A stretch of 13,677 nucleotides of DNA from Candidatus Aenigmatarchaeota archaeon (GTDB taxonomy: Archaea; Aenigmatarchaeota; Aenigmatarchaeia; QMZP01), in the NCBI GenBank assembly GCA_030673725.1, contig DAOVIL010000004.1:1-13677 (forward strand). The letters run 5' to 3'. Position 1 is the first letter of the stretch. Each line of letters starts with the position of its first letter. Position numbers and translations under genes: made by a program. A model generated the notes under the pieces. It saw only the letters and a list, made by a program, of their open reading frames with translations, was not told the origin of the DNA and made no database searches. Of the stretch, positions 3,964-13,677 are shown piece after piece.

Positions 3964-4365
3964 ATGAACCGAAAAGGACAGATGTTCATTGTGACAATGG
4001 TGTTCATGACAGGCCTGATTTTCGCTGTCCAGCAAATCCTTTACCAGTATTCCTTCATAGACCCTGCAGACCCGATGCAGAGGAATGACGCCCCCCTCTT
4101 CTATATGATAAGGGACTCGTACAATGTCTCGATAGAAACCCCAGGGCTGACCTTCTCCAGGGCGAACCAGTCTGTCCAGGAGCTGCACACATGGCTGATG
4201 ACAAGGGGCATGGGGCCGTACAACCTGGAGCTGCGCTATAACGGCCTGGCTGACCCGGACCTGAAACGCGCCAACTGGGGGACAAGCAGCCCTGCGCTCA
4301 TCCTGAATGTCCACCTTACAGGCCCGACAACAGACTCCAGGGCGACTTACAGATTCTACGGCTGA
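3964..4365 (+). CDS. Pilin-like membrane protein, class III signal peptide
   Basis: The 133-residue product begins MNRKGQMFIVTM. The basic R-K-G|Q site before an uninterrupted hydrophobic helix (7-27) is the hallmark of archaeal class III (type IV pilin-like) signal peptides, normally cut by a FlaK/PibD-type peptidase after Gly5. The outer part (30-133) looks mixed alpha/beta, with a strand-rich end ALILNVHLTGPTTDSRATYRF and no cysteine. The conserved Glu often found at +5 is missing. ATG 3964 is the only start that gives this signal. It lies 17 bases after the AspRS stop with no TATA box or Shine-Dalgarno visible, so it probably shares the AspRS transcript. It is the first of seven anchored proteins in a row. 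Exact family not recognised. Confidence 0.75.
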   Translation: MNRKGQMFIVTMVFMTGLIFAVQQILYQYSFIDPADPMQRNDAPLFYMIRDSYNVSIETPGLTFSRANQSVQELHTWLMTRGMGPYNLELRYNGLADPDLKRANWGTSSPALILNVHLTGPTTDSRATYRFYG

Positions 4366-4368
4366 ACC

Positions 4369-4380
4369 CAAATATATAAG
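4369..4380 (+). promoter_or_regulatory. TATA-like box upstream of the 195-residue pilin-like gene
   Basis: The AAATATATAAG run begins 4 bases after the preceding stop and ends 22 bases before the ATG at 4403. This is the canonical archaeal spacing for a leaderless transcript, and no Shine-Dalgarno precedes the ATG. Confidence 0.6.
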
Positions 4381-4402
4381 CGGGCTCGGACAAATTATAA
4401 CC

Positions 4403-4990
4403 ATGAGGACCCAAAGAAAGGGCGCTTTCCAGGTCAGCATGGGATTCATCATCACTGTGGTATTCGCAGTGGTGCTCCTTACCCTTGCCCTCCCCTGGCT
4501 GACAGAGACAGTAAGCCAGATAAGCGGGGTGACCCATCAGGTCACTGACCTGGCAAGGTCAGAGCTCCTGAACGAGATAGCCCAGACAGGAGCAAAGGTC
4601 GGCATAGCTGCACCCCCTGTAACCGCATGGAGGAGGGGAGAGACAGGAGCCTTCGCCATAGGCATCAAGAACAAATACACTGACCAGGGCAAGACGTTCT
4701 ACATAAATGTCTACCTGGTGGGCCTTGGGGGAAACCTGGCAGGAGAGTCTGCGGCAGCCTTGCAGGGTGATGTGAGCAAATGGCTGACATTCTTCTCGAA
4801 CGAATTTGTCGAGGCAGGAGGCAGCAAGTCCAGCAAAATAATAATGAAGCCTGCAGCTGACGCAAGAGCAGGCATCTACCAATTCAGGGTGCTGGTATGC
4901 GAGTCCCAGCCATGCACGACGCTTGAAGCGACGCCCGAGAGCAACATATACGGCTCTGAATCATTTGCGATAGAGATTGAGGCCTTCTAA
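4403..4990 (+). CDS. Pilin-like anchored protein with beta-sandwich ectodomain
   Basis: The 195-residue product starts MRTQRKG|AFQVSM, a basic R-K-G site before a hydrophobic helix (about 13-34), as in pilin-like class III signals with Ala at +1 like archaellins. The outer part contains RRGETGAFAIGIKN and FYINVYLVG (about 77-107), then SSKIIMKPAADARAGIYQF and VLVCESQPC (143-171). This strand pattern resembles CARDB or other Ig-like archaeal surface domains. Cys166 and Cys171 could form a small loop disulfide. It has its own TATA-like box 24-33 bases upstream and is followed by a 147-base gap with hairpins and a T-tract, so it looks like a one-gene transcription unit. An upstream reading-frame extension to 4307 is rejected because it overlaps the preceding gene. 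Confidence 0.75.
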   Translation: MRTQRKGAFQVSMGFIITVVFAVVLLTLALPWLTETVSQISGVTHQVTDLARSELLNEIAQTGAKVGIAAPPVTAWRRGETGAFAIGIKNKYTDQGKTFYINVYLVGLGGNLAGESAAALQGDVSKWLTFFSNEFVEAGGSKSSKIIMKPAADARAGIYQFRVLVCESQPCTTLEATPESNIYGSESFAIEIEAF

Positions 4991-5030
4991 GAAACCTTTG
5001 TCCCTTCGGATTTGCTCCACATAAAGGTCG

Positions 5031-5111
5031 TGTCTCGTAGACACGAGACATCTCTGCATCAGAGATGCAGATTTCATCCAAGCAAGGCCTTCCTTTTTTT
5101 CTTGTTATTTT
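5031..5111 (+). terminator. Double hairpin followed by T-tract
   Basis: A perfect 8-bp stem with a 4-base loop (TGTCTCGT 5031-5038, ACGAGACA 5043-5050) is followed at once by a second perfect 8-bp stem with a 3-base loop (TCTGCATC 5053-5060, GATGCAGA 5064-5071). The second region can instead pair ATCTCTG (5050-5056) with CAGAGAT (5060-5066), which excludes the other form. A T-rich tract (5091-5111, including seven consecutive T) follows about 20 bases later. The most likely role is transcription termination after 4990, since archaea use T-tracts. A structured small RNA or processing site is the alternative. Confidence 0.5.
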
Positions 5112-5136
5112 AACCCCTCTATACTATATTATATAA
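5104..5136 (+). promoter_or_regulatory. AT-rich promoter before the 5138 operon
   Basis: TTATTTTAA lies 26-34 bases before the ATG at 5138, and a TATACTATATTATATAAT run reaches the start codon itself. A leaderless transcript from the first box fits the spacing. The T-rich terminator-like tract overlaps it, so one element may serve both ends. No Shine-Dalgarno is present. Confidence 0.45.
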
Positions 5137-5137
5137 T

Positions 5138-5608
5138 ATGAACGCGGGCATGGTTTTCGCGCTTATTTTCACTGTAATCGTGATAGGGCTTGTTCTGGTC
5201 TTCGGGCTGGGCCAGATGGGCAGCCTTTTCTGCATGTCCAGCGACGCCCAGGTAGGCAAGGCAATGACAGACCTGGAGACAGTGGCTTCAGAGGTATACA
5301 ACCTGGCAGAGGGCTCAAGCAGGGTGTTCAGAATCAGCCTTCCCGGAGACTCAAAGCTGTGCTTCGTGGATCCGGAGGGCACAGGCATACAGCTCTATAC
5401 AGCCGCAGACAGCTGGAAGAACTGGGTGCCTGACCCTGTCTACGAGAGCATCATACAGGAGAAGGGCTACAACATCTGGTATGAGATGTGCAGCGGCAAG
5501 GGCGGCAAGACACTGTCCTACGTAAAGGTGCCCAAGAATTTCTGTGTAATAGGGGGCAAGAGCATCTACCTGGAGAACAAGGGCCTCTGGGTGGAGATAA
5601 GCGTTTAA
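5138..5608 (+). CDS. Anchored pilin-like protein with four cysteines
   Basis: The 156-residue product has one N-terminal hydrophobic helix (about 5-28). It opens MNAGMVFAL, with no basic residue before the Gly, so prepilin-type processing is doubtful and a simple anchor is possible. The outer part has a helix (35-57: DAQVGKAMTDLETVASEVYN) and then a beta-rich region with SRVFRISLPGDSKLCFVDPEG (61-81) and KNFCVIGGKSIYLENKGLWV (133-152). Cysteines are at 32, 75, 118 and 136; pairing of 75 with 136 is plausible as both sit on neighbouring strands. I recall similar short anchored proteins with a LPxGxKxCF-type motif in DPANN archaea but cannot name the family. It opens a four-gene operon: the next gene starts 11 bases after the stop. 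Confidence 0.75.
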   Translation: MNAGMVFALIFTVIVIGLVLVFGLGQMGSLFCMSSDAQVGKAMTDLETVASEVYNLAEGSSRVFRISLPGDSKLCFVDPEGTGIQLYTAADSWKNWVPDPVYESIIQEKGYNIWYEMCSGKGGKTLSYVKVPKNFCVIGGKSIYLENKGLWVEISV

Positions 5609-5619
5609 GGGGTTTGGGA

Positions 5620-6777
5620 ATGGTATCGGCTTTCCAGGTATTCAAGATGCTGTTCGGGCTGATTATATCCGGCTTTGTCCTGTATTTCCTGGTGTTCTAT
5701 GCAGGCAGCTACAGCCAGACCCAGACAGAATCACAGCAGGTCATTATATTAAAGAACTTTGAGGACCTTGCAAAGGACGTCTATTATACAGGCAACCCCT
5801 CCCCCTTCGGGGACTTCAAAAGGGTCGAATTCTCCATGCTCTCCCTGGAGATAAGGGAGCCTGAGGGCAATGCCCAGGTCGTGGCGGATATAGGGAAGGT
5901 GACGCTTACTGTTCCCCTATTCTTCAGGCCAGGGGACGAGCTTTTTATTGACAGGGCCACAATGGACCTGGGCTGGTGGGAGTTCCATGTGGCAGAGGCG
6001 ATGCCCGAGACAAAGGTCATACTCAACCCGATGGAAGTGGGCCCGGAATCCTGGTCATACATGAAGGAGGCAGTAAGGATGATGCCCTCCTCTATAGGGT
6101 TCGAGCCCAAGGTCACGTTCGGATTATGTGACGGGGACGTCATCGTAGAGGACTTCCTGGGCCTTTGCGGCCCCTCCAGCGACCCATGCGAGAAGGAATA
6201 CTTCCTGAGGATATCCAGGCCTGACACAGGCATGTCCAGGTGCACAGCCCAGCTGCCTGAAGGCTACATACTCGCCACGATAGCGCGGGACTGCTCCAAT
6301 GTGCAGTCAGGCGCCTGCTTCGAGCCCCCATCTGTCGGCACAGGCAATGCGCACATAGCCGGCTCCACCAAAACGTACCTCTACCATGATGCTATGGACT
6401 GGGTGGCACTTATCATAGGGGGCAGCAGGTCAGACATATACGGCTTCGCAGGGGAGAACCTCTGGAGGCACAAGAACAAGATGTTCGGGACAGAGGTCGG
6501 CCTGGCAGCAGAGATGATGGCTGAGAGGGCCAGGATGCTGGCGACAGCCATAGAGGATGAGGTGAACAGGGGCGGTTTATTGCCAGACAGCCAGAGCGCT
6601 GACTGCAAGCAGCTTTACCTGGACCTGGGCACTGTGCTGGATGTCATCACAGACGCGCTCAGCCTGGACGACTACCACACAGCATTCGCCAGCGTGCGCC
6701 AGCTCAACGAGAAGCTGGCAGAGGCAGAGGCAATGCACAACGGGCTTGTGAACAAGGGGTGTGAGCCTATAACATGA
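5620..6777 (+). CDS. Anchored surface protein with cysteine-rich beta region and helical tail
   Basis: The 385-residue product has a single N-terminal hydrophobic helix (about 8-27, opening MVSAFQVFKMLFG) with no pilin-type cleavage site. Beta-rich sequence (65-215) follows, and a mainly helical C-terminal third (285-380) with EVGLAAEMMAERARMLATAI and VRQLNEKLAEAEAM. Eight cysteines lie at 170, 183, 190, 208, 225, 233, 329 and 381, all outside the membrane. The 5138 product and this one share the layout of anchor, helix (LKNFEDLAKDVYY here, DLETVASEVYN there) and strands, which suggests distant paralogy. It starts 11 bases after the previous stop, with a weak purine run AAGGGG (5607-5612). 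Its stop overlaps the next ATG as ATGA. Function not recognised; probably an extracytoplasmic subunit of the same surface assembly. Confidence 0.75.
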   Translation: MVSAFQVFKMLFGLIISGFVLYFLVFYAGSYSQTQTESQQVIILKNFEDLAKDVYYTGNPSPFGDFKRVEFSMLSLEIREPEGNAQVVADIGKVTLTVPLFFRPGDELFIDRATMDLGWWEFHVAEAMPETKVILNPMEVGPESWSYMKEAVRMMPSSIGFEPKVTFGLCDGDVIVEDFLGLCGPSSDPCEKEYFLRISRPDTGMSRCTAQLPEGYILATIARDCSNVQSGACFEPPSVGTGNAHIAGSTKTYLYHDAMDWVALIIGGSRSDIYGFAGENLWRHKNKMFGTEVGLAAEMMAERARMLATAIEDEVNRGGLLPDSQSADCKQLYLDLGTVLDVITDALSLDDYHTAFASVRQLNEKLAEAEAMHNGLVNKGCEPIT

Positions 6778-7286
6778 AAACGAAAAAACTGGCAGGCCAG
6801 ATGGGGATAATGGAGTACATGCTGATGACGGTCTTCATAATGGTAATAATAGTCATGCTGGTGTTCTTCTTCAGCGGCTGGCAGATATCACAGACACAGA
6901 TGCAGGGGAGCAGGGTGAAGAGCGAGAATCTGCTTTCCAACCTGAAGAACGTGATGTACTCCCCCCTCTTCATAAGGGATGACAGCATGTTCGATGACGC
7001 CAAGCTCACCGCACTCCAGGGCAAGTGCGAGAAGGTGAAGGAAGTGCTTGGGGCGGACGTCTTCATAGAGGTCAAGACCCTGGAGAAGGTGGCTGAGATA
7101 CCCTGCGACCCGCACAGGTATGACATAAACTGCAACTACTGGTCCATCTGCAGGAGGGACGCCCCGCACAGCGCCCTTGTGATGCCTGTGAACGTCTACA
7201 GGAACATGGGGAACGTCCTGGCCTCAGGCATACTGGGAAGGGTGGACCTGGCCATAGTAAAGGTGGGGGTGTATGAGAGCCAATAA
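6774..7286 (+). CDS. Pilin-like protein with AG|Q signal
   Basis: The 170-residue product opens MKTKKLAGQMGIMEYM. Lysines at 2, 4 and 5, then Leu-Ala-Gly|Gln and a Glu six residues into the mature part, precede a hydrophobic helix (about 16-34), which fits an archaeal class III signal peptide with cleavage after Gly8. The outer part has helices (SENLLSNLKNVMY at 50-62; LTALQGKCEKVKEVLG at 78-93) and a beta end (RVDLAIVKVGVY). Cysteines are at 85, 111, 120 and 126. The ATG overlaps the preceding stop in ATGA, and the stop lies inside the next gene, so expression is tightly coupled to both neighbours. The anchor followed by a NLLSNL helix recalls NMLLSIL in the next gene, hinting at a duplicated pair. 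Exact family not recognised. Confidence 0.78.
   Translation: MKTKKLAGQMGIMEYMLMTVFIMVIIVMLVFFFSGWQISQTQMQGSRVKSENLLSNLKNVMYSPLFIRDDSMFDDAKLTALQGKCEKVKEVLGADVFIEVKTLEKVAEIPCDPHRYDINCNYWSICRRDAPHSALVMPVNVYRNMGNVLASGILGRVDLAIVKVGVYESQ
7260..7268 (+). promoter_or_regulatory. Shine-Dalgarno for the 172-residue pilin-like gene
   Basis: The purine run AAGGTGGGG lies 4-6 bases before the ATG at 7273, inside the coding end of the preceding gene. It decides this start, which overlaps the upstream gene by 14 bases, and points to coupled translation. Confidence 0.5.
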
Positions 7287-7791
7287 GGGACAGACCACAC
7301 TGGTGATGATAGTGATAATCATAATCATATTCGCAGGAATCATCATGTTCCTCCTCAACCTGGCGGGGACTGTCAGCCAGAAGGAGTACATGAACATGTA
7401 TTCCCATAACATGCTCCTCTCGATTCTCAGGACAGACACAGGGTACCTGGACTCCAAGTGCCAGACGATGTCAGACACCCTGGCATGCGCCTTCCTGGAG
7501 CCCAGCTGGGTGTGCGAGGGCAGCGGGATGAGATGCAAAGATCTGGCAGAAGGGCTTCTGGCAAGCTATACTGGCAAGCTGGAGGCCACCAAGAAGAACT
7601 ACCTCTACCTCTTCACTGTGGAGCCCACAGGCGGGCTGGTAGTGAGGGACCCTGAAACAGGCGAGCAGATGGTCATACAGGTCGGCAACATGGATCCGTC
7701 AGCAAAAGGGGACATAATAACAGCCAATGAGAGGATAGTGAAAGGTGGGAACATCCTGAAAGTGCAGCTTAAGCTCACCAGTGCCCAATGA
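7273..7791 (+). CDS. Pilin-like protein with KG|Q class III signal
   Basis: The 172-residue product opens MRANKG|QTTLVMIV, with a basic Lys-Gly|Gln site directly before a very hydrophobic helix (about 8-30), a textbook class III/prepilin-like start except that Glu+5 is missing. The outer part has YSHNMLLSILRTDTGY (43-58), then four cysteines at 63, 72, 81 and 88 in a helical region ending CKDLAEGLLASY, then a strand region with NYLYLFTVEP (109-118) and a beta end NILKVQLKLT. I recall the LLLSxLRTDTGY...CKDLA pattern as frequent in DPANN anchored proteins, but no curated name is known to me. The start overlaps the preceding gene by 14 bases. It is the last gene of the 5138 unit: a TATA-like box lies before the next gene. 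Confidence 0.78.
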   Translation: MRANKGQTTLVMIVIIIIIFAGIIMFLLNLAGTVSQKEYMNMYSHNMLLSILRTDTGYLDSKCQTMSDTLACAFLEPSWVCEGSGMRCKDLAEGLLASYTGKLEATKKNYLYLFTVEPTGGLVVRDPETGEQMVIQVGNMDPSAKGDIITANERIVKGGNILKVQLKLTSAQ

Positions 7792-7802
7792 TGGGCCCCT
7801 AG

Positions 7803-7815
7803 AATATTAATAAAC
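7803..7815 (+). promoter_or_regulatory. TATA-like box upstream of the 612-residue gene
   Basis: The AATATTAATAAA run lies 23-35 bases before the ATG at 7838 in a 46-base gap, with no Shine-Dalgarno near the start codon. Spacing fits a leaderless archaeal transcript that would carry the 612-residue gene and the giant secreted protein. A GGGCCC palindrome (7794-7799) precedes it, and no T-tract terminator is visible. Confidence 0.5.
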
Positions 7816-7837
7816 AATGGGCACCTAATTTAATTAT

Positions 7838-9676
7838 ATGGTGAAGGGCCAGGTCGAATTCATTGCCATCATAGGTATCATCGCTGTTGTAATAGTTGCC
7901 GTCTATTTCGCATTCACTTCAGTAGCTCCTGGGGTGACACCCACTGCTCCTGTGTACACTTCTGCAGAGCAGGCTTCTGTCGCAGACACAGTAAACAGCT
8001 TCGTCAGGGACGGCACCTCAGAGACCCTCAGGACCCTCAGCACGTATGGAGGCTACCTGTCCCCGCAGGCAGACTCGGTCACATACCTTGGCAAGGAGAC
8101 ATCCTACTGGATGAAGGACGGCTCAGTCAGCTACCCCAACCTGAAGGACAATTTCATAGCAGGCCTCAGGGACTATATCAATACTAACAAAGATGCGCTG
8201 GAGAGCTCGCTTGCCGGCCAGGGCGTGGAGTTCGGCACTCCCACAGTCTCTGCCACACTCATGTCAAACCAGATAGTGGCCACAGTCAACATGCCCACAA
8301 CCTTCAAGGGCGGCCAGGTGCCCCAGCCGTATGTAATCACGATTCCGACCAAGATATCAGATGTTTATGAGTTCTCAAAGGCCCTTGCAGAATACCAGAA
8401 GACAGAGAGGTTCCTGGAATACACTACCCTGGCCTCGATGGTGAGCTCCCCGATAACTAACAATGTGAAGGACGTGCCGATGTGGATAGCCCTCGTAAGG
8501 TGCGGGGACTATGTGTTCAAGACCTGGTCTGACATACAGCCTGGCGTTGACTATGCGGTCAAGACCACGCTGGCGCACATATACATGCCTGGCAAGGTTC
8601 CCACCAACATAGGGGATGTGACGAGCTACCCCAAGTACCCGCTGCCCCCGATGAACGGGAAGAGCTACAGTGACCTGGGAGTCTCCTTTACGCTTCCTGA
8701 CGACTTCGGTTTTGACAGGAGCAACCTGCAGATAGACCCTGACCCGATAATAGCTTACGCCAAGCCAGTGCCCAGGACAGGGCTGTGCTATGGCGACCCC
8801 AAGCTGGTCAGCTACCATCTCGATTACCCTGCAGTCGTGGTCGTCAAGGACTCACTTACAGGCAACCTCTTCAAGTTCGCTGTGGACACGATGATACAGG
8901 ACAACCTGCCAGGCGACTGGGCCACAGTTGGGTATGAGTCAGACGACCAGGAGGCTATATGTGCTGCCAGGGACTGCCCTGTTGACATAACTGTGGTTGA
9001 CTCCTCAGGCGGCCCGGTTGACGGCGCTGCCATAAAGTTCGCTGGATGTGGCCTGGGTTCCACTGATGTCAATGGGGAGTTCAAGGGAATTGCCCCCTGC
9101 GCTGCAGGCCCCCTTCACGTGTTCAAGGCAAATTATGGGACATACCAGCAGGCATTTGACGAGAGCGATATAAGGGACATAACAGTGACCCTGCCAGGCA
9201 TACCGCAGCTCAGCGTATACTTCTACGAGGTGCCGATAGAAAACCAGTCTGACTCAAGCGGCGAGAAATACTTCATCTATGACAGGACCATAACGACTGT
9301 AGGCAATGACAGGGTGGCCAGGCTGGTCCTGACGAATTCAGCAGACTTCGAGATGTATGAGGTAGTGAGCGAGGATGACATAGCAGTGCTCAACTATGCT
9401 CCTGCAGGCAACTATGGCCTCTCATCGGGGCTGTTCTCAAGCGACATAGCCACCATGTATGGAGGGGCAGTCACATCATACGAGATAACAGAGGACATGA
9501 ACGGAAAGGCGCTCTATGTATACATCCCGACCCTTGTGGGATTCGAGAACATAGACAATGACGATGACATAGTGGGCGCCACAGATACCCTTTCAACTGT
9601 ACTGAGGAACCTGGGCATAGGCCCGATATCAAGCACACCCTTTGTCCAGACAGGGGCACTGGAGGTTACCCTATGA
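7838..9676 (+). CDS. Large pilin-like anchored protein with carboxypeptidase-regulatory-like domain
   Basis: The 612-residue product opens MVKG|QVEFIAII: a Lys-Gly|Gln class III site, Glu at +3, and one hydrophobic helix (about 8-27). Residues 40-170 include VADTVNSFVRDGTSETLRTL, a GGYL turn and YWMKDG, an arrangement I recall from large anchored DPANN proteins. Strand-rich sequence follows. Near 380-455 lies a carboxypeptidase-regulatory-like (CarboxypepD_reg/Ig-like) fold, with PVDITVVDSSGGPVDGAAIK, a Gly-Ser-Thr-Asp-x-Asn-Gly-Glu-Phe turn and a closing DITVTLPG strand. Beta-rich sequence continues to the end. Length is three to four times the other anchored proteins. The stop overlaps the giant gene start in ATGA, so the two proteins are probably made in fixed ratio and may bind each other. 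Role: structural or tip-linking component (inference). Confidence 0.8.
   Translation: MVKGQVEFIAIIGIIAVVIVAVYFAFTSVAPGVTPTAPVYTSAEQASVADTVNSFVRDGTSETLRTLSTYGGYLSPQADSVTYLGKETSYWMKDGSVSYPNLKDNFIAGLRDYINTNKDALESSLAGQGVEFGTPTVSATLMSNQIVATVNMPTTFKGGQVPQPYVITIPTKISDVYEFSKALAEYQKTERFLEYTTLASMVSSPITNNVKDVPMWIALVRCGDYVFKTWSDIQPGVDYAVKTTLAHIYMPGKVPTNIGDVTSYPKYPLPPMNGKSYSDLGVSFTLPDDFGFDRSNLQIDPDPIIAYAKPVPRTGLCYGDPKLVSYHLDYPAVVVVKDSLTGNLFKFAVDTMIQDNLPGDWATVGYESDDQEAICAARDCPVDITVVDSSGGPVDGAAIKFAGCGLGSTDVNGEFKGIAPCAAGPLHVFKANYGTYQQAFDESDIRDITVTLPGIPQLSVYFYEVPIENQSDSSGEKYFIYDRTITTVGNDRVARLVLTNSADFEMYEVVSEDDIAVLNYAPAGNYGLSSGLFSSDIATMYGGAVTSYEITEDMNGKALYVYIPTLVGFENIDNDDDIVGATDTLSTVLRNLGIGPISSTPFVQTGALEVTL
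9661..9667 (+). promoter_or_regulatory. Strong Shine-Dalgarno for the giant secreted protein
   Basis: GGAGGTT, a perfect anti-16S match, lies 5 bases before ATG 9673, inside the coding end of the upstream gene. It supports this start over the in-frame ATG at 9679 and shows re-initiation at the ATGA overlap. Confidence 0.75.
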
Positions 9677-12600
9677 ACATGAAGACATTCAGCATAGAAC
9701 TTGGAGCGATACTGGTATGCTACATGCTGATTATGCTGCCGGTGGTGTCAGCCACTGACGTCAACGTACTGTTCAACGGAGAGCTGAAGGAGACGGTTGT
9801 CATATCCCCAGAGAACCTGGTGAACAGGCAGATAAACATAGTGCACCTGCCGAACGACATAACCTGGACCAACGTGAAGGTCCTGATATCTGTCAGCTCA
9901 GCCAGCCTGGCCAAGTCCATAAGCAGGATACTGGTCTACAAGTGCAAGAACAACAACCCTGTGGACTGCATAAAAGCCGAACCATTGGAGTTCGAGGCAT
10001 ATGTGGACACAGAGCTCTCCTGGAATGACATCTCAGAGAAGACAGGCGCAGGCATGTACCCCCAGTTTGCCAATGTGCTCATGTTAGTTAAGCTGGAAGG
10101 CGACGGCACAAGCTGGACAGCTTTCTGGGACACGATTGAGAGGACCAACTACAATGTGTTCACCACCAAGAGCAGCGAGGTCGGAACCATAGACATAGAG
10201 CTGCAGTCTCTGGAGGTACTGGGGCCAGTGAAGAACTTCATAATGGAGAACCAGATGCTTCCCTTCACCTGGCTGAAGAGCGTGGCCTTCTCAGCCAGGA
10301 ACCTTTTCGGGATAGGGGCCAATGAGAAGGAGCTGGACACCAATGACCTGCAGGGAGTCAGGCCGCCCTCCACCACAGTGACCTCCATATCAAAGGATTT
10401 CTTCTTCATGTTCCCCGAGACAGCCAATGTGAACCATCCAGTCGTCCTGAACAGGAACCCGACCTACACATGCGGCAACAATATCCCGGAGCTTGAGCTG
10501 GGAGAGACCCAGGTGAACTGCTGCTATGACAACGGCTGCCCGGCAGGCAGCTACTGCGACCTGAGGGACGCTGATGACCCGGCGACAGGCACATGCAAGA
10601 GCGATAGCAACATAGCGCTTGAGGTCCTGCCTGTGCCGCCCGCACAGGTGGACGACTGCACCCAGCAGGTGCAGATAGACGTCTCAGCCAGGCTGATGAA
10701 CGCGCCCTCCAACCTTCCGGAGACAGCGTCAGGAAGGATTACGCTAAAGGATATACCATATCCTGTCACATGCACCAGGTACACGATGGACACGTACAGG
10801 TGCCCGCTGGCCATCCCATCGCCTGCAGGATGCGGCTTCGGTGATTCAGGCGTGGGCCCGAACAGGCTGTCCCTGACTATTACCTACACAGACGGGGCAA
10901 ACCAGGTGTCAAAGGACTTCGAGAGGGGCTTTGGCACAGTCACGATGAACTATGACTGCGCCTGCCCTGAAGGCTACTACTGCGACTCAGAAAGGCTTAA
11001 GTGCCAGCCAGAAGGCTCCATAACATTGGGAGTGCTTTCAGTCAGGTCATTCATAGATGATTACAACGAGGCAGGGGACAGCATAGATGTCCAGCTCAAG
11101 ATAAACAATCCGCCCTCAGACCTTGAGGTCACAGGGGCCGAGTACAGGCTGGGCTACATGACATTCAATGGGGACAACGAGACAGGCATGACAGGCTCCA
11201 TCACATGCACTGGCGGGCCAGAGACAGGCTACATATATGACTGCCCGATACCTTTCTCTATAAGCAACTATGACCACACCAAGCAGTATGTGGTGAGGGA
11301 CAACAGCATGAGCTTTGATGTCGCCTACAGCTCAGGCCCTGACACCAAGACAAAGGCCCTGACAACCGGCTTCTCTGACGTCACAATACCTAGCTACAGG
11401 TGCGGAGACAGGACCTGCCACCCGGAGGAGAACAGCGACAACTGCTGCACAGACTGCGGGTGCGATGCACCAGGCACATTCTGTGATGCTGAGAGGGGCT
11501 GCCAAACCACAGGGGATATAGCGGTGGTTGTGGACAGCGTCACTCCGGACACTGTGGATGGCTGCAAGAAGCAGCATACCATCAACATAACAGCCCATAT
11601 AGAGGGCATGCCGTCTGACGCCAGGCTTGATTACTCGTCCCACCAGATGGAAGGCGCCGCTTCAGGATGGCCTATGGCATGCGGCCAGCCCAACCAGTTC
11701 ACAGGGATAATCCAGTGCTCCCTGACTGTCCCGCCACAGAACGGCTTATGCCAGGGAATCTCCCTGCCGAACCAGTATGTGATAAGCCCGAACACCCTCA
11801 ACATCAAGATATCATACTCTGACGGGGCCGCAATGGCAACCAAGACCCTGACAGCGGACTTCAGCGAGATCAGGATAAACCCGAGGGCGGTGTGCGGTGA
11901 TAATGTCTGTGAGGACAACCTGGGCGAGAGCGCATCCAACTGCTGCCTGGACTGCTCCTGCACGAACCCTGCATACTTCTCCCCGCCGCAGGGCAACATA
12001 ATGGATTATTACTGCAATTACGACCCAGCTGACCCCAATGACAATGGCGAGTGCAGGTACAAGAATGCCATAAGCCTTGATGTCAAGAGCCCGACAAGCA
12101 CAGTCAGATTCACTAGATGTGAGATAAGCAATTCACTTGATGTGCTGGTTGATATAGTCAACCCACCCACACAGATGAGGGTGGACGGCTGGACAGCCAC
12201 TGTAGGCAGGGTCAAGAACAACGGCACAGACGACATAACTTCTGAGGAGAACACCGCAGTCATGTGCGAGGAAAAGAACACAGGCAGCTACAACTGCAGC
12301 ATCCAGATACCTGCAATAGGCGACTGCAGGTCAGGACAAGTGTACAAGTTCACTGATAATACCCTGTCAGTCTCCCTTTCCTATCCAGACGGCCCGATCA
12401 GGGAGATAGCCTCGCTTACAGAAGATGTGGTCGATGCAGAGGTGACCCAGAGCACCAAGACCCTCTTCGAGATAATGGAAACCTCCATAAGCAAGATGCA
12501 GGAAAAGCTGGCTGAGATCGAGAAGCTGATGAAGAAGTCAATGGAGTACATGGAGAGGTGCATGAACTGGAAGATTGCTGCTGCAGCCATCAATGCTTTC

Positions 12601-13677
12601 CTTACGATTCTCGGGGCCTTCGCGGATATATTAGGCGCAGGCAGCGGCAACCTGAAGGGAGGCTGGTCCACTATGGGAAGCACAGTGGGAAGCGCTTTCA
12701 TAGCTACAGTGACCGCCATATGCGATGCGGTTTTGAAGTATAATGAGGCAATGATAGAATACCAGGCAGCACTGCTGGACCAGATAGCAGGGGAGATGTG
12801 CATGGATATGTACCACCACCAGGTGGATGAAGGCCTGTGCAAGAACAAGGAGACCCAGTGCCTGGGACAGATGACCAAGTGCCTGAAGGATATGAGCAGC
12901 AAGATGAAAGGCCACTTCAATAACATAGATGGCCTGATGGACCAGGTTACAGCCAGCATGAACACCGCAAGCAAGTCATGGGAAAAGGTGGGCGAAGCTG
13001 CAAAGCAGATTGGCCGGGGATGGGATAGAACAGCTGCTTTCGTCATACTTGAGAGGGGCAACATAGCCGTGACGTCCACCAAGAACGTATGCAACCATAA
13101 CGGCCTCGGCGGCACCCAGGCCAGGCCAGCCTGCAGAGATACCCCCATAAGCTACAGGGCAGCCAAGTGCAGTTCTGGAGGCAGGGCCTTCGTCACATTC
13201 ACTGCTGGAAGCGGCGCCTCAGAGCAGCCCTCGACGATTGGTATGGGGCGTGTGAGGGACCTTGTGCCTAACCTGGGAATCGGAAGCGAAGTGCTCGTTA
13301 CATTCAAGTTGTACTGTGACGACAACAAGAACAATATATTCGAGATTGACAGGGACAGATTGCAGAATAGCCTGACCAAGGAAATCAAATTCGAGGGAAG
13401 CAGCGGGATGGGCGGCGCCCCGGCATGCAGGTGCAAGGGTTATACCGGCACTGATGCAGGTGACGGAGGCGCTCAAACCGGAAACACCATCACCCTGGGA
13501 CAGCCATTCGATATGAGCATGGCTGATTCACCCAAGACGTTCACAATCAACCCCACATACAGGTTTGAGGTTGTGGCAAGCAGTTACGCTGATTATATCT
13601 CTTCAGAGTCATGGGACTTTAACTTTGAGATATATGACCAGGCGGGAGCACTGAAGGCATCCGACACAGTGACTCAC
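9673..13677 (+). CDS. Giant secreted cysteine-rich repeat protein (partial, open at window end)
   Basis: The frame is open from ATG 9673 to the last base, giving 1335 residues without a stop. A Sec signal peptide (1-27, ending PVVSA|TD) replaces the pilin-like signals of the neighbours. After an N-terminal domain (28-266) come four tandem units of 148-164 residues. Each begins with a cysteine knot (267-308, 429-444, 577-610, 741-794; 6, 4, 8 and 8 cysteines), in units 3 and 4 of the form CGDxxC-x(8,9)-NCCxDCxC, then a beta domain. Beta-domain ends share YxxG-like turns at Tyr405, Tyr552, Tyr715 and Tyr904. Residues 925-1124 are alpha-helical: a coiled-coil-like stretch, two hydrophobic stretches (967-990, 1000-1020), and long amphipathic helices. 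Beta-rich sequence follows, with a DDNKNN loop at 1216-1221. It is likely an extracellular adhesin or tip protein; no named family recognised. Confidence 0.85.
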   Translation, partial: MNMKTFSIELGAILVCYMLIMLPVVSATDVNVLFNGELKETVVISPENLVNRQINIVHLPNDITWTNVKVLISVSSASLAKSISRILVYKCKNNNPVDCIKAEPLEFEAYVDTELSWNDISEKTGAGMYPQFANVLMLVKLEGDGTSWTAFWDTIERTNYNVFTTKSSEVGTIDIELQSLEVLGPVKNFIMENQMLPFTWLKSVAFSARNLFGIGANEKELDTNDLQGVRPPSTTVTSISKDFFFMFPETANVNHPVVLNRNPTYTCGNNIPELELGETQVNCCYDNGCPAGSYCDLRDADDPATGTCKSDSNIALEVLPVPPAQVDDCTQQVQIDVSARLMNAPSNLPETASGRITLKDIPYPVTCTRYTMDTYRCPLAIPSPAGCGFGDSGVGPNRLSLTITYTDGANQVSKDFERGFGTVTMNYDCACPEGYYCDSERLKCQPEGSITLGVLSVRSFIDDYNEAGDSIDVQLKINNPPSDLEVTGAEYRLGYMTFNGDNETGMTGSITCTGGPETGYIYDCPIPFSISNYDHTKQYVVRDNSMSFDVAYSSGPDTKTKALTTGFSDVTIPSYRCGDRTCHPEENSDNCCTDCGCDAPGTFCDAERGCQTTGDIAVVVDSVTPDTVDGCKKQHTINITAHIEGMPSDARLDYSSHQMEGAASGWPMACGQPNQFTGIIQCSLTVPPQNGLCQGISLPNQYVISPNTLNIKISYSDGAAMATKTLTADFSEIRINPRAVCGDNVCEDNLGESASNCCLDCSCTNPAYFSPPQGNIMDYYCNYDPADPNDNGECRYKNAISLDVKSPTSTVRFTRCEISNSLDVLVDIVNPPTQMRVDGWTATVGRVKNNGTDDITSEENTAVMCEEKNTGSYNCSIQIPAIGDCRSGQVYKFTDNTLSVSLSYPDGPIREIASLTEDVVDAEVTQSTKTLFEIMETSISKMQEKLAEIEKLMKKSMEYMERCMNWKIAAAAINAFLTILGAFADILGAGSGNLKGGWSTMGSTVGSAFIATVTAICDAVLKYNEAMIEYQAALLDQIAGEMCMDMYHHQVDEGLCKNKETQCLGQMTKCLKDMSSKMKGHFNNIDGLMDQVTASMNTASKSWEKVGEAAKQIGRGWDRTAAFVILERGNIAVTSTKNVCNHNGLGGTQARPACRDTPISYRAAKCSSGGRAFVTFTAGSGASEQPSTIGMGRVRDLVPNLGIGSEVLVTFKLYCDDNKNNIFEIDRDRLQNSLTKEIKFEGSSGMGGAPACRCKGYTGTDAGDGGAQTGNTITLGQPFDMSMADSPKTFTINPTYRFEVVASSYADYISSESWDFNFEIYDQAGALKASDTVTH
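10471..12391 (+). repeat. Four tandem cysteine-knot plus beta-domain units (protein-level repeat)
   Basis: Unit starts fall at residues 267, 429, 577 and 741 of the giant protein, 162, 148 and 164 residues apart. In the beta domains of units 1, 3 and 4 a Cys opens the domain (DDC, DGC, TRC), then a pattern C-x(8-13)-C-x-(L/I)-x-(I/V)-P-x(4,5)-C recurs (VTC...YRCPLAIP, MAC...IQCSLTVP, VMC...YNCSIQIP). Each ends with a strand and turn: TYTDG, AYSSG, SYSDG, SYPDG. Unit 2 is divergent, with a short knot and only the middle cysteine pair. DNA identity between units is low, so duplication is old. Confidence 0.75.

Follow-up and report, generated by a model that had tools for sequence, protein, structure and literature searches.

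A conserved set of pilin-like genes with a giant cysteine-rich protein in Aenigmatarchaeota, a candidate accessory-pilin and adhesin module

The DNA analyzed here (the window; 13,677 nucleotides, contig DAOVIL010000004.1 of assembly GCA_030673725.1, our contig C106) comes from a Candidatus Aenigmatarchaeota archaeon whose 702-kb genome lies in 143 contigs and is 71% complete. From position 3964 to the contig end at 13677, the window carries eight genes, g1 to g8, all on the + strand and all encoding exported proteins, as a preliminary description of this stretch had stated. On balance, we read the locus as an accessory-pilin and giant-adhesin module of a type IV pilus-like system that is assembled in trans, a reading we think probable, though only just. 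It is supported by a gene order kept across the taxonomic order, by the conservation of class III sites over background and by conserved cysteines (Cys); by motor, platform and prepilin peptidase families encoded elsewhere in the genomes, with a pilus machine near the module in 11 of them; and by published precedent for an ATPase and TadC platform serving pilins in trans (PMC4858521; this and the other articles are cited for the sections consulted). Judging from gene order, the products of g1 to g8 would form one assembly, and by analogy the layout may work like minor pilins with PilY1 and like the clade-1 archaeal pilus model. None of the eight proteins reached the cut-off in a Pfam and NCBIfam search, and no homology to archaellin or to named pilus families was found, in agreement with the preliminary description.

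Gene order of the two modules

The genes fall into two modules. Block A consists of g2-g3-g4-g5-g6, and block B consists of g7-g8, which in relatives is often followed by g9, a signal-peptide protein with a C-terminal membrane segment as read from its sequence. Block A was found in identical order and on one strand in 29 genomes, the window and 28 others, from five genome families of a single taxonomic order (among the others, 13 in f1, five in f2, eight in f3 and one each in f4 and f5). Five more copies were partial: four were at contig ends and one (G079) had no detected g2. The order is conserved, and so a lack of synteny, which the preliminary description had named as fatal to its proposal, was clearly not what we observed. 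Its picture of pilin-like proteins that differ from one another, are encoded in a fixed order and go together with one giant secreted protein was likewise borne out, with relatives among DPANN archaea; the five named genome records that encode a g7 relative are all Candidatus Aenigmatarchaeota (e.g., JAUWZW010000009.1, JACQII010000009.1 and JAFCEK010000001.1).

Across the 37 genomes of the order, profiles matched g4 in 34, g5 in 33 and g7 in 36. Among 108 genomes outside the order, matches were found for g4 in five (at the N-terminal helix only), for g5 in seven (weakly) and for g7 in five (four weakly and one, G117, strongly). A search with g8 gave matches, some of them short, in 43 of the 145 genomes of the phylum, and g9 matched 17 of 24 family genomes, some weakly.

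The two blocks are often neighbors: the next labelled gene after block A was g7 in 16 of the 28 complete copies, and the remaining complete copies, such as those in G139, G040 and the f3 genomes, had no g7 beside them. Within block B, g8 lay directly downstream of g7 for all 39 g7 open reading frames (ORFs), in a sample biased by the fact that loci were mostly fetched because of g8. Start and stop codons in the window overlap by a few bases at g4/g5, g5/g6 and g7/g8, which is consistent with an operon. Several genomes contain a second, diverged g7-g8 pair, and in the window's own genome contig C70 carries another g7. The membership of g1 is the least certain because this gene often accompanies AspRS instead of g2.

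Some single genomes depart from this arrangement. In G139, which has a full block A near 717 kb, a partial g5 match (G139:C1:464035-464244) lies just upstream of a separate g6-g7-g8-g9 copy and may be a trace of the modules having split. The g6/g7 junction is interrupted in single genomes by genes that look unrelated by eye, a short-chain dehydrogenase-like gene (L033:6003-6749) and an AAA-type ATPase-like gene (L049:9760-11151). Proteins of about 1000-1176 amino acids (aa) in family f13, which lies outside the order (L257:5473-10524 in G012, also L254 and L256) resemble g4 at the N-terminal helix region only.

Prepilin-type sites in the pilin-like proteins

Five of the seven anchored proteins, g1, g2, g5, g6 and g7, have the form of the archaeal class III (prepilin) signal: a short leader is followed by a G|Q or G|A step and a single hydrophobic helix. 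The sites are exactly those that the preliminary description had singled out (Table 1). Counting ORFs >110 aa, we found [GA]Q directly before the helix in 11 of 11 g1, 16 of 16 g5, 17 of 17 g6 and 36 of 39 g7 members. The same pair was seen in none of 16 g3, 15 g4, 43 g8 and 31 g9 members. A variant site, [GA][ADGE][FIL][QE]-x-S, is present in 16 of the 20 g2 ORFs; of the four without it, three are shorter, second g2-like ORFs and one is the latter half of a split ORF. As a background, [GA]Q occurred in 37 of 264 other ORFs with an N-terminal hydrophobic stretch in the fetched loci. Of these ORFs, 170 come from stretches fetched for pilus machines, which have pilins of their own, and 36 of them had the pair; among the 94 from elsewhere, one did. 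Measured against this background, the conservation indicates that the site is not due to chance. The weak Pilin_N matches of g6 and Class_IIIsignal matches of g5 (given below) point the same way. Beyond the site, E7 of g7 is invariant across relatives, as are the two g5 residues given in Table 1.

The main rival explanation is an envelope scaffold, in which the leaders serve only for insertion and trimming; the proteins would form no fibre but remain membrane-bound in a complex that resembles an S-layer or acts as an anchor. We regard this as possible but doubtful, given that four families keep the prepilin-type site almost perfectly and that the g5 motif GQ-x-x-x-MEY resembles the GQ-x-x-MEY of pilin-like proteins in the same genome family (L161 and L169), which we take to be major pilins.

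Pilus machines encoded elsewhere

The T2SSF and T2SSE families each occur in all 24 family genomes, and in the window's own genome four and five times, respectively; the T2SSE model (PF00437) also matches other ATPases, so that 24 of 24 overstates the number of pilus motors. Peptidase_A24, the prepilin peptidase family, was found in 19 of the 24. One machine recurs: an ATPase gene and two TadC genes, accompanied by one or two genes for small pilin-like proteins. In 11 genomes from three families (G031, G030, G081, G023, G014, G093, G006, G050, G040, G053 and G035) it is found at 6-25 kb from block A, block B or g9. In G053 and G035 only g9 is near the machine, in G081 the contig has one TadC only, and G079 is a possible twelfth case by positions only. 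These distances were judged by inspection, and in most other genomes machine and module are on different contigs. In the window's own genome, contig C45 has an ATPase/TadC/TadC run in the same arrangement, and its ATPase contains a PilB3_C domain (E-value (E) 2.8e-8; the scan covered this one machine ATPase and none from the 11 genomes). We also count in favor of a pilus module that in G012, a genome of the outside family f13, a 1176-aa protein with a g4-like N-terminus is encoded head-to-head with a T2SSE ATPase.

Besides the overcount of motors, several observations weigh against this reading. The ATPase and platform genes that the preliminary description had reported missing are indeed absent locally: a screen with 41 references, which label all 20 machine loci, found neither ATPase nor TadC in 56 fetched cluster loci, some of them short, the lone apparent hit being an intein. 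Genome-wide, their families are present, as the counts above indicate. Peptidase_A24 was not found in the window's own genome, at its present completeness. In G139 and G120, at least about 66 kb separate the machine from the module; where a machine is nearby, it comes with its own small pilins; and there are several machines per genome, so that some proximity to the module is expected. Other machines can be close as well: in G112 a TadC pair is 13 kb away from block A, and in G040 a T2SSE gene is 24 kb away from block B. Because the f2 genomes share one machine arrangement and G031 and G081 share another, the 11 genomes represent fewer independent events than their number. At the level of the proteins, g3 and g4 have no prepilin-type site, Pilin_N matched five of 15 g6 members and Class_IIIsignal two of 16 g5 members, both weakly (best E 0.011 and 0.082, respectively), and a search of the PDB with a g7 profile yielded marginal pilin matches only (E 0.64 and 0.7).

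Motors in trans would also suit a pseudopilus-like device for secretion or DNA uptake, in which block A forms a short pseudopilus for pushing out cargo or drawing in DNA, and the fixed set of small pilin-like genes with the larger g4 resembles pseudopilin operons in general layout. We consider this quite unlikely: we saw no further conserved gene, for example one for a channel, within the syntenic block (genes beyond g1-g9 are mostly unannotated), and the strongest partner of the block is a giant surface protein.

Two further observations concern the fetched sequences themselves. At the motor loci L155:1523-5646 and L173:7365-12072, small GQ/AQ pilin-like proteins weakly match DUF7266 and, in L173, DUF7289. 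At L055:15393-17978, a reading frame matches FAD-binding and intein-splicing families and includes a LAGLIDADG domain; it is an oxidoreductase apparently interrupted by an intein.

The giant protein and its place among known pili

The giant cysteine-rich secreted protein announced by the preliminary description is g8, which has an ordinary signal peptide and at least 1335 residues, the contig ending within the gene. The 1335 aa include 55 Cys, and 35 of 49 Cys are invariant across 16 g8 sequences. The protein models as a chain of Cys-knot and immunoglobulin (Ig)-like units followed by a hydrophobic helical module. The difference in fold among outer domains proposed in the preliminary description was examined by structure models of g7 and g8 only. 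Residues 1122-1335 have 12-19% aligned identity to 14 f1 relatives; with P0001 the identity is 80-87% further upstream and drops to 45% here. This tail is fast-evolving.

The long helices with their hydrophobic tip, together with weak matches of the helical region to SLATT_1 (E 0.0066) and DUF4231 (E 0.016-0.02), could point to a contact-dependent, membrane-active device in which g8 inserts its three-helix module into a partner cell's membrane. This seems very unlikely to us, as the matches fall far short of the cut-off and could arise from any two-helix hairpin, the same data are explained by insertion into the cell's own membrane, and the tip (residues 974-1005) is modelled at low confidence (predicted local distance difference test, pLDDT, <50). 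An archaellum-like rotary filament is extremely improbable: class III leaders are common to archaellins, and homologues of FlaG, FlaI and FlaJ are reported from most Aenigmarchaeota metagenome-assembled genomes, with type IV pili in thermal ones only (PMC8407114), but Arch_flagellin (PF01917) was found in none of the 24 family genomes by a search whose control matches four named archaea, and by the features tested we reject this identity.

Upstream of g1-g8, the window encodes AspRS, an OB-fold protein and PCNA. Positions 525-1475 encode a small membrane protein with C-V-P-C, a small Cys-rich protein and a thioredoxin-like protein anchored in the membrane (WCSYC; Thioredoxin E 9.5e-4), which possibly carry out disulfide chemistry outside the cytoplasm from which the Cys-rich g8 could benefit.

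Table 1. Genes of the locus and regions of their products, with positions in the window.
Feature	Position	Strand	Description
g1	3964..4365	+	133 aa; class III-like RKG|Q, then helix; accompanying gene with frequent linkage to AspRS
g2	4403..4990	+	195 aa; RKG|AFQ, then helix; first gene of block A
g3	5138..5608	+	156 aa; N-terminal anchor helix, without class III site; block A
g4	5620..6777	+	385 aa; N-terminal anchor helix, without class III site; outer domain with conserved Cys; block A
g5	6774..7286	+	170 aa; pilin-like LAG|Q; invariant Q9 and E14; outer-domain Cys; block A
g6	7273..7791	+	172 aa; pilin-like NKG|Q; last gene of block A
g7	7838..9676	+	612 aa; pilin-like VKG|Q-x-E; large outer region; block B
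g7 residues 376-456	8963..9205	+	transthyretin/carboxypeptidase regulatory-like (CnaB-like) domain
g8	9673..13677	+	giant Sec-exported Cys-rich protein, 3' end missing at contig end; block B
g8 residues 28-260	9754..10452	+	N-terminal beta region, conserved
g8 residues 261-930	10453..12462	+	Cys knots and Ig-like domains in chain
g8 residues 931-1121	12463..13035	+	three long helices, hydrophobic tip, invariant Cys
g8 residues 1122-1335	13036..13677	+	start of C-terminal region, poorly conserved

The preliminary description knew of no named archaeal system that the locus matches, but the architecture has published precedents. Comparable modules are already present in published archaeal pilus models, and the locus is a variant of these, not a new kind; precedents are the clade-1 type IV pili (T4P; PMC4858521) and islands in some DPANN genomes that have been read as diverse pilins and may include a relative of the g1-g8 locus (PMC6393860). 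DPANN pilins often escape annotation (PMC9563170, PMC6393860), and in a partial reading of the literature, without most subscription journals, we recognized no description of the g1-g8 set.

In the clade-1 model, described for Methanococcus, Methanothermobacter and Thermococcus, at least five class III minor pilins are combined with large PilY-like DUF2341 proteins (Makarova et al., 2016, PMC4858521). The locus shares with these systems several class III minor pilins, a large secreted protein and rapid sequence divergence. It differs in that their loci hold an ATPase and two TadC genes, whereas the cluster loci fetched here contained no motor, and in that their large proteins carry DUF2341 (PMC4858521). 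No DUF2341 match was listed for g8 or found in the window's own genome; the domain occurs in 11 of the 24 family genomes, never at the place of g8. Given g8 without DUF2341, identity with clade-1 T4P is rejected by the features tested. Separately, giant open frames of about 3400-4600 codons that match DUF2341 lie away from g8 at G035:C25, G102:C57 and G147:C15.

There is evidence for ATPase/TadC modules working with pilins encoded in trans, as in haloarchaeal PilB3-PilC3, whose motor locus without pilins serves pilins located elsewhere (PMC4858521). A further likeness is the PilB3_C domain of the own-genome ATPase beside two TadC genes. In contrast to that system, the block A families have no Pfam assignment, and one g5 member reaches DUF7287, which we take to be a haloarchaeal family, at E 0.025 only.

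In bacteria, the FimU-PilVWXE minor pilin genes are followed by the gene for the giant exported protein PilY1, and the comparison with minor pilins and PilY1 drawn in the preliminary description stands as far as this layout goes, several minor pilins and then a giant exported protein. No Pfam link to PilY1 was found: no PilY1/PilC family was listed for the window's g8 (C-terminus missing), for the full-length P0001 and L033 or for other relatives, which are cut near residue 1130. As modelled, g8 also differs in being a Cys-knot/Ig chain with helices. In Saccharibacteria, T4P are used for episymbiosis, and host binding requires a large, modular minor pilin (PMC12206443). The likeness here is a presumed episymbiont lifestyle, with host association of our archaeon inferred from its phylum only; the Saccharibacteria system is bacterial.

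If the locus is an accessory-pilin and adhesin module, g1, g2, g5, g6 and g7 would be inserted by Sec via class III-type leaders, trimmed by a prepilin peptidase encoded elsewhere and extracted by an ATPase/TadC platform in trans into a short fibre or fibre tip, with g3 and g4 as unprocessed, membrane-anchored partners. The modular large pilin g7, with its Ig/CnaB-like extension, would dock the conserved N-terminal part of g8, so that block A together with g7 carries or anchors the giant adhesin. The disulfide-locked Cys-knot/Ig chain of g8 could then project outward or lie along the envelope, held by the hydrophobic helical module, while its variable tail may contact the surroundings or a host cell. 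A bolder version, which we think unlikely, is an independently evolved, order-wide T4-filament tip apparatus in these presumed DPANN episymbionts. It would pair a minor-pilin core of five genes with one giant, disulfide-locked subunit; the hydrophobic helical module of this subunit would engage the partner cell's membrane or insert into it, and its hypervariable tail would determine host specificity.

How DPANN archaea recognize and hold partner cells is an open question. The locus offers a set of surface genes that lack annotation and keep a strict order throughout the taxonomic order, and predictions about it can be tested: which of the leaders are cut, by which motor the set is served and whether g8 acts as the adhesin. 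Even if the system proves ordinary in principle, boundaries are now given for eight protein families without Pfam assignment.
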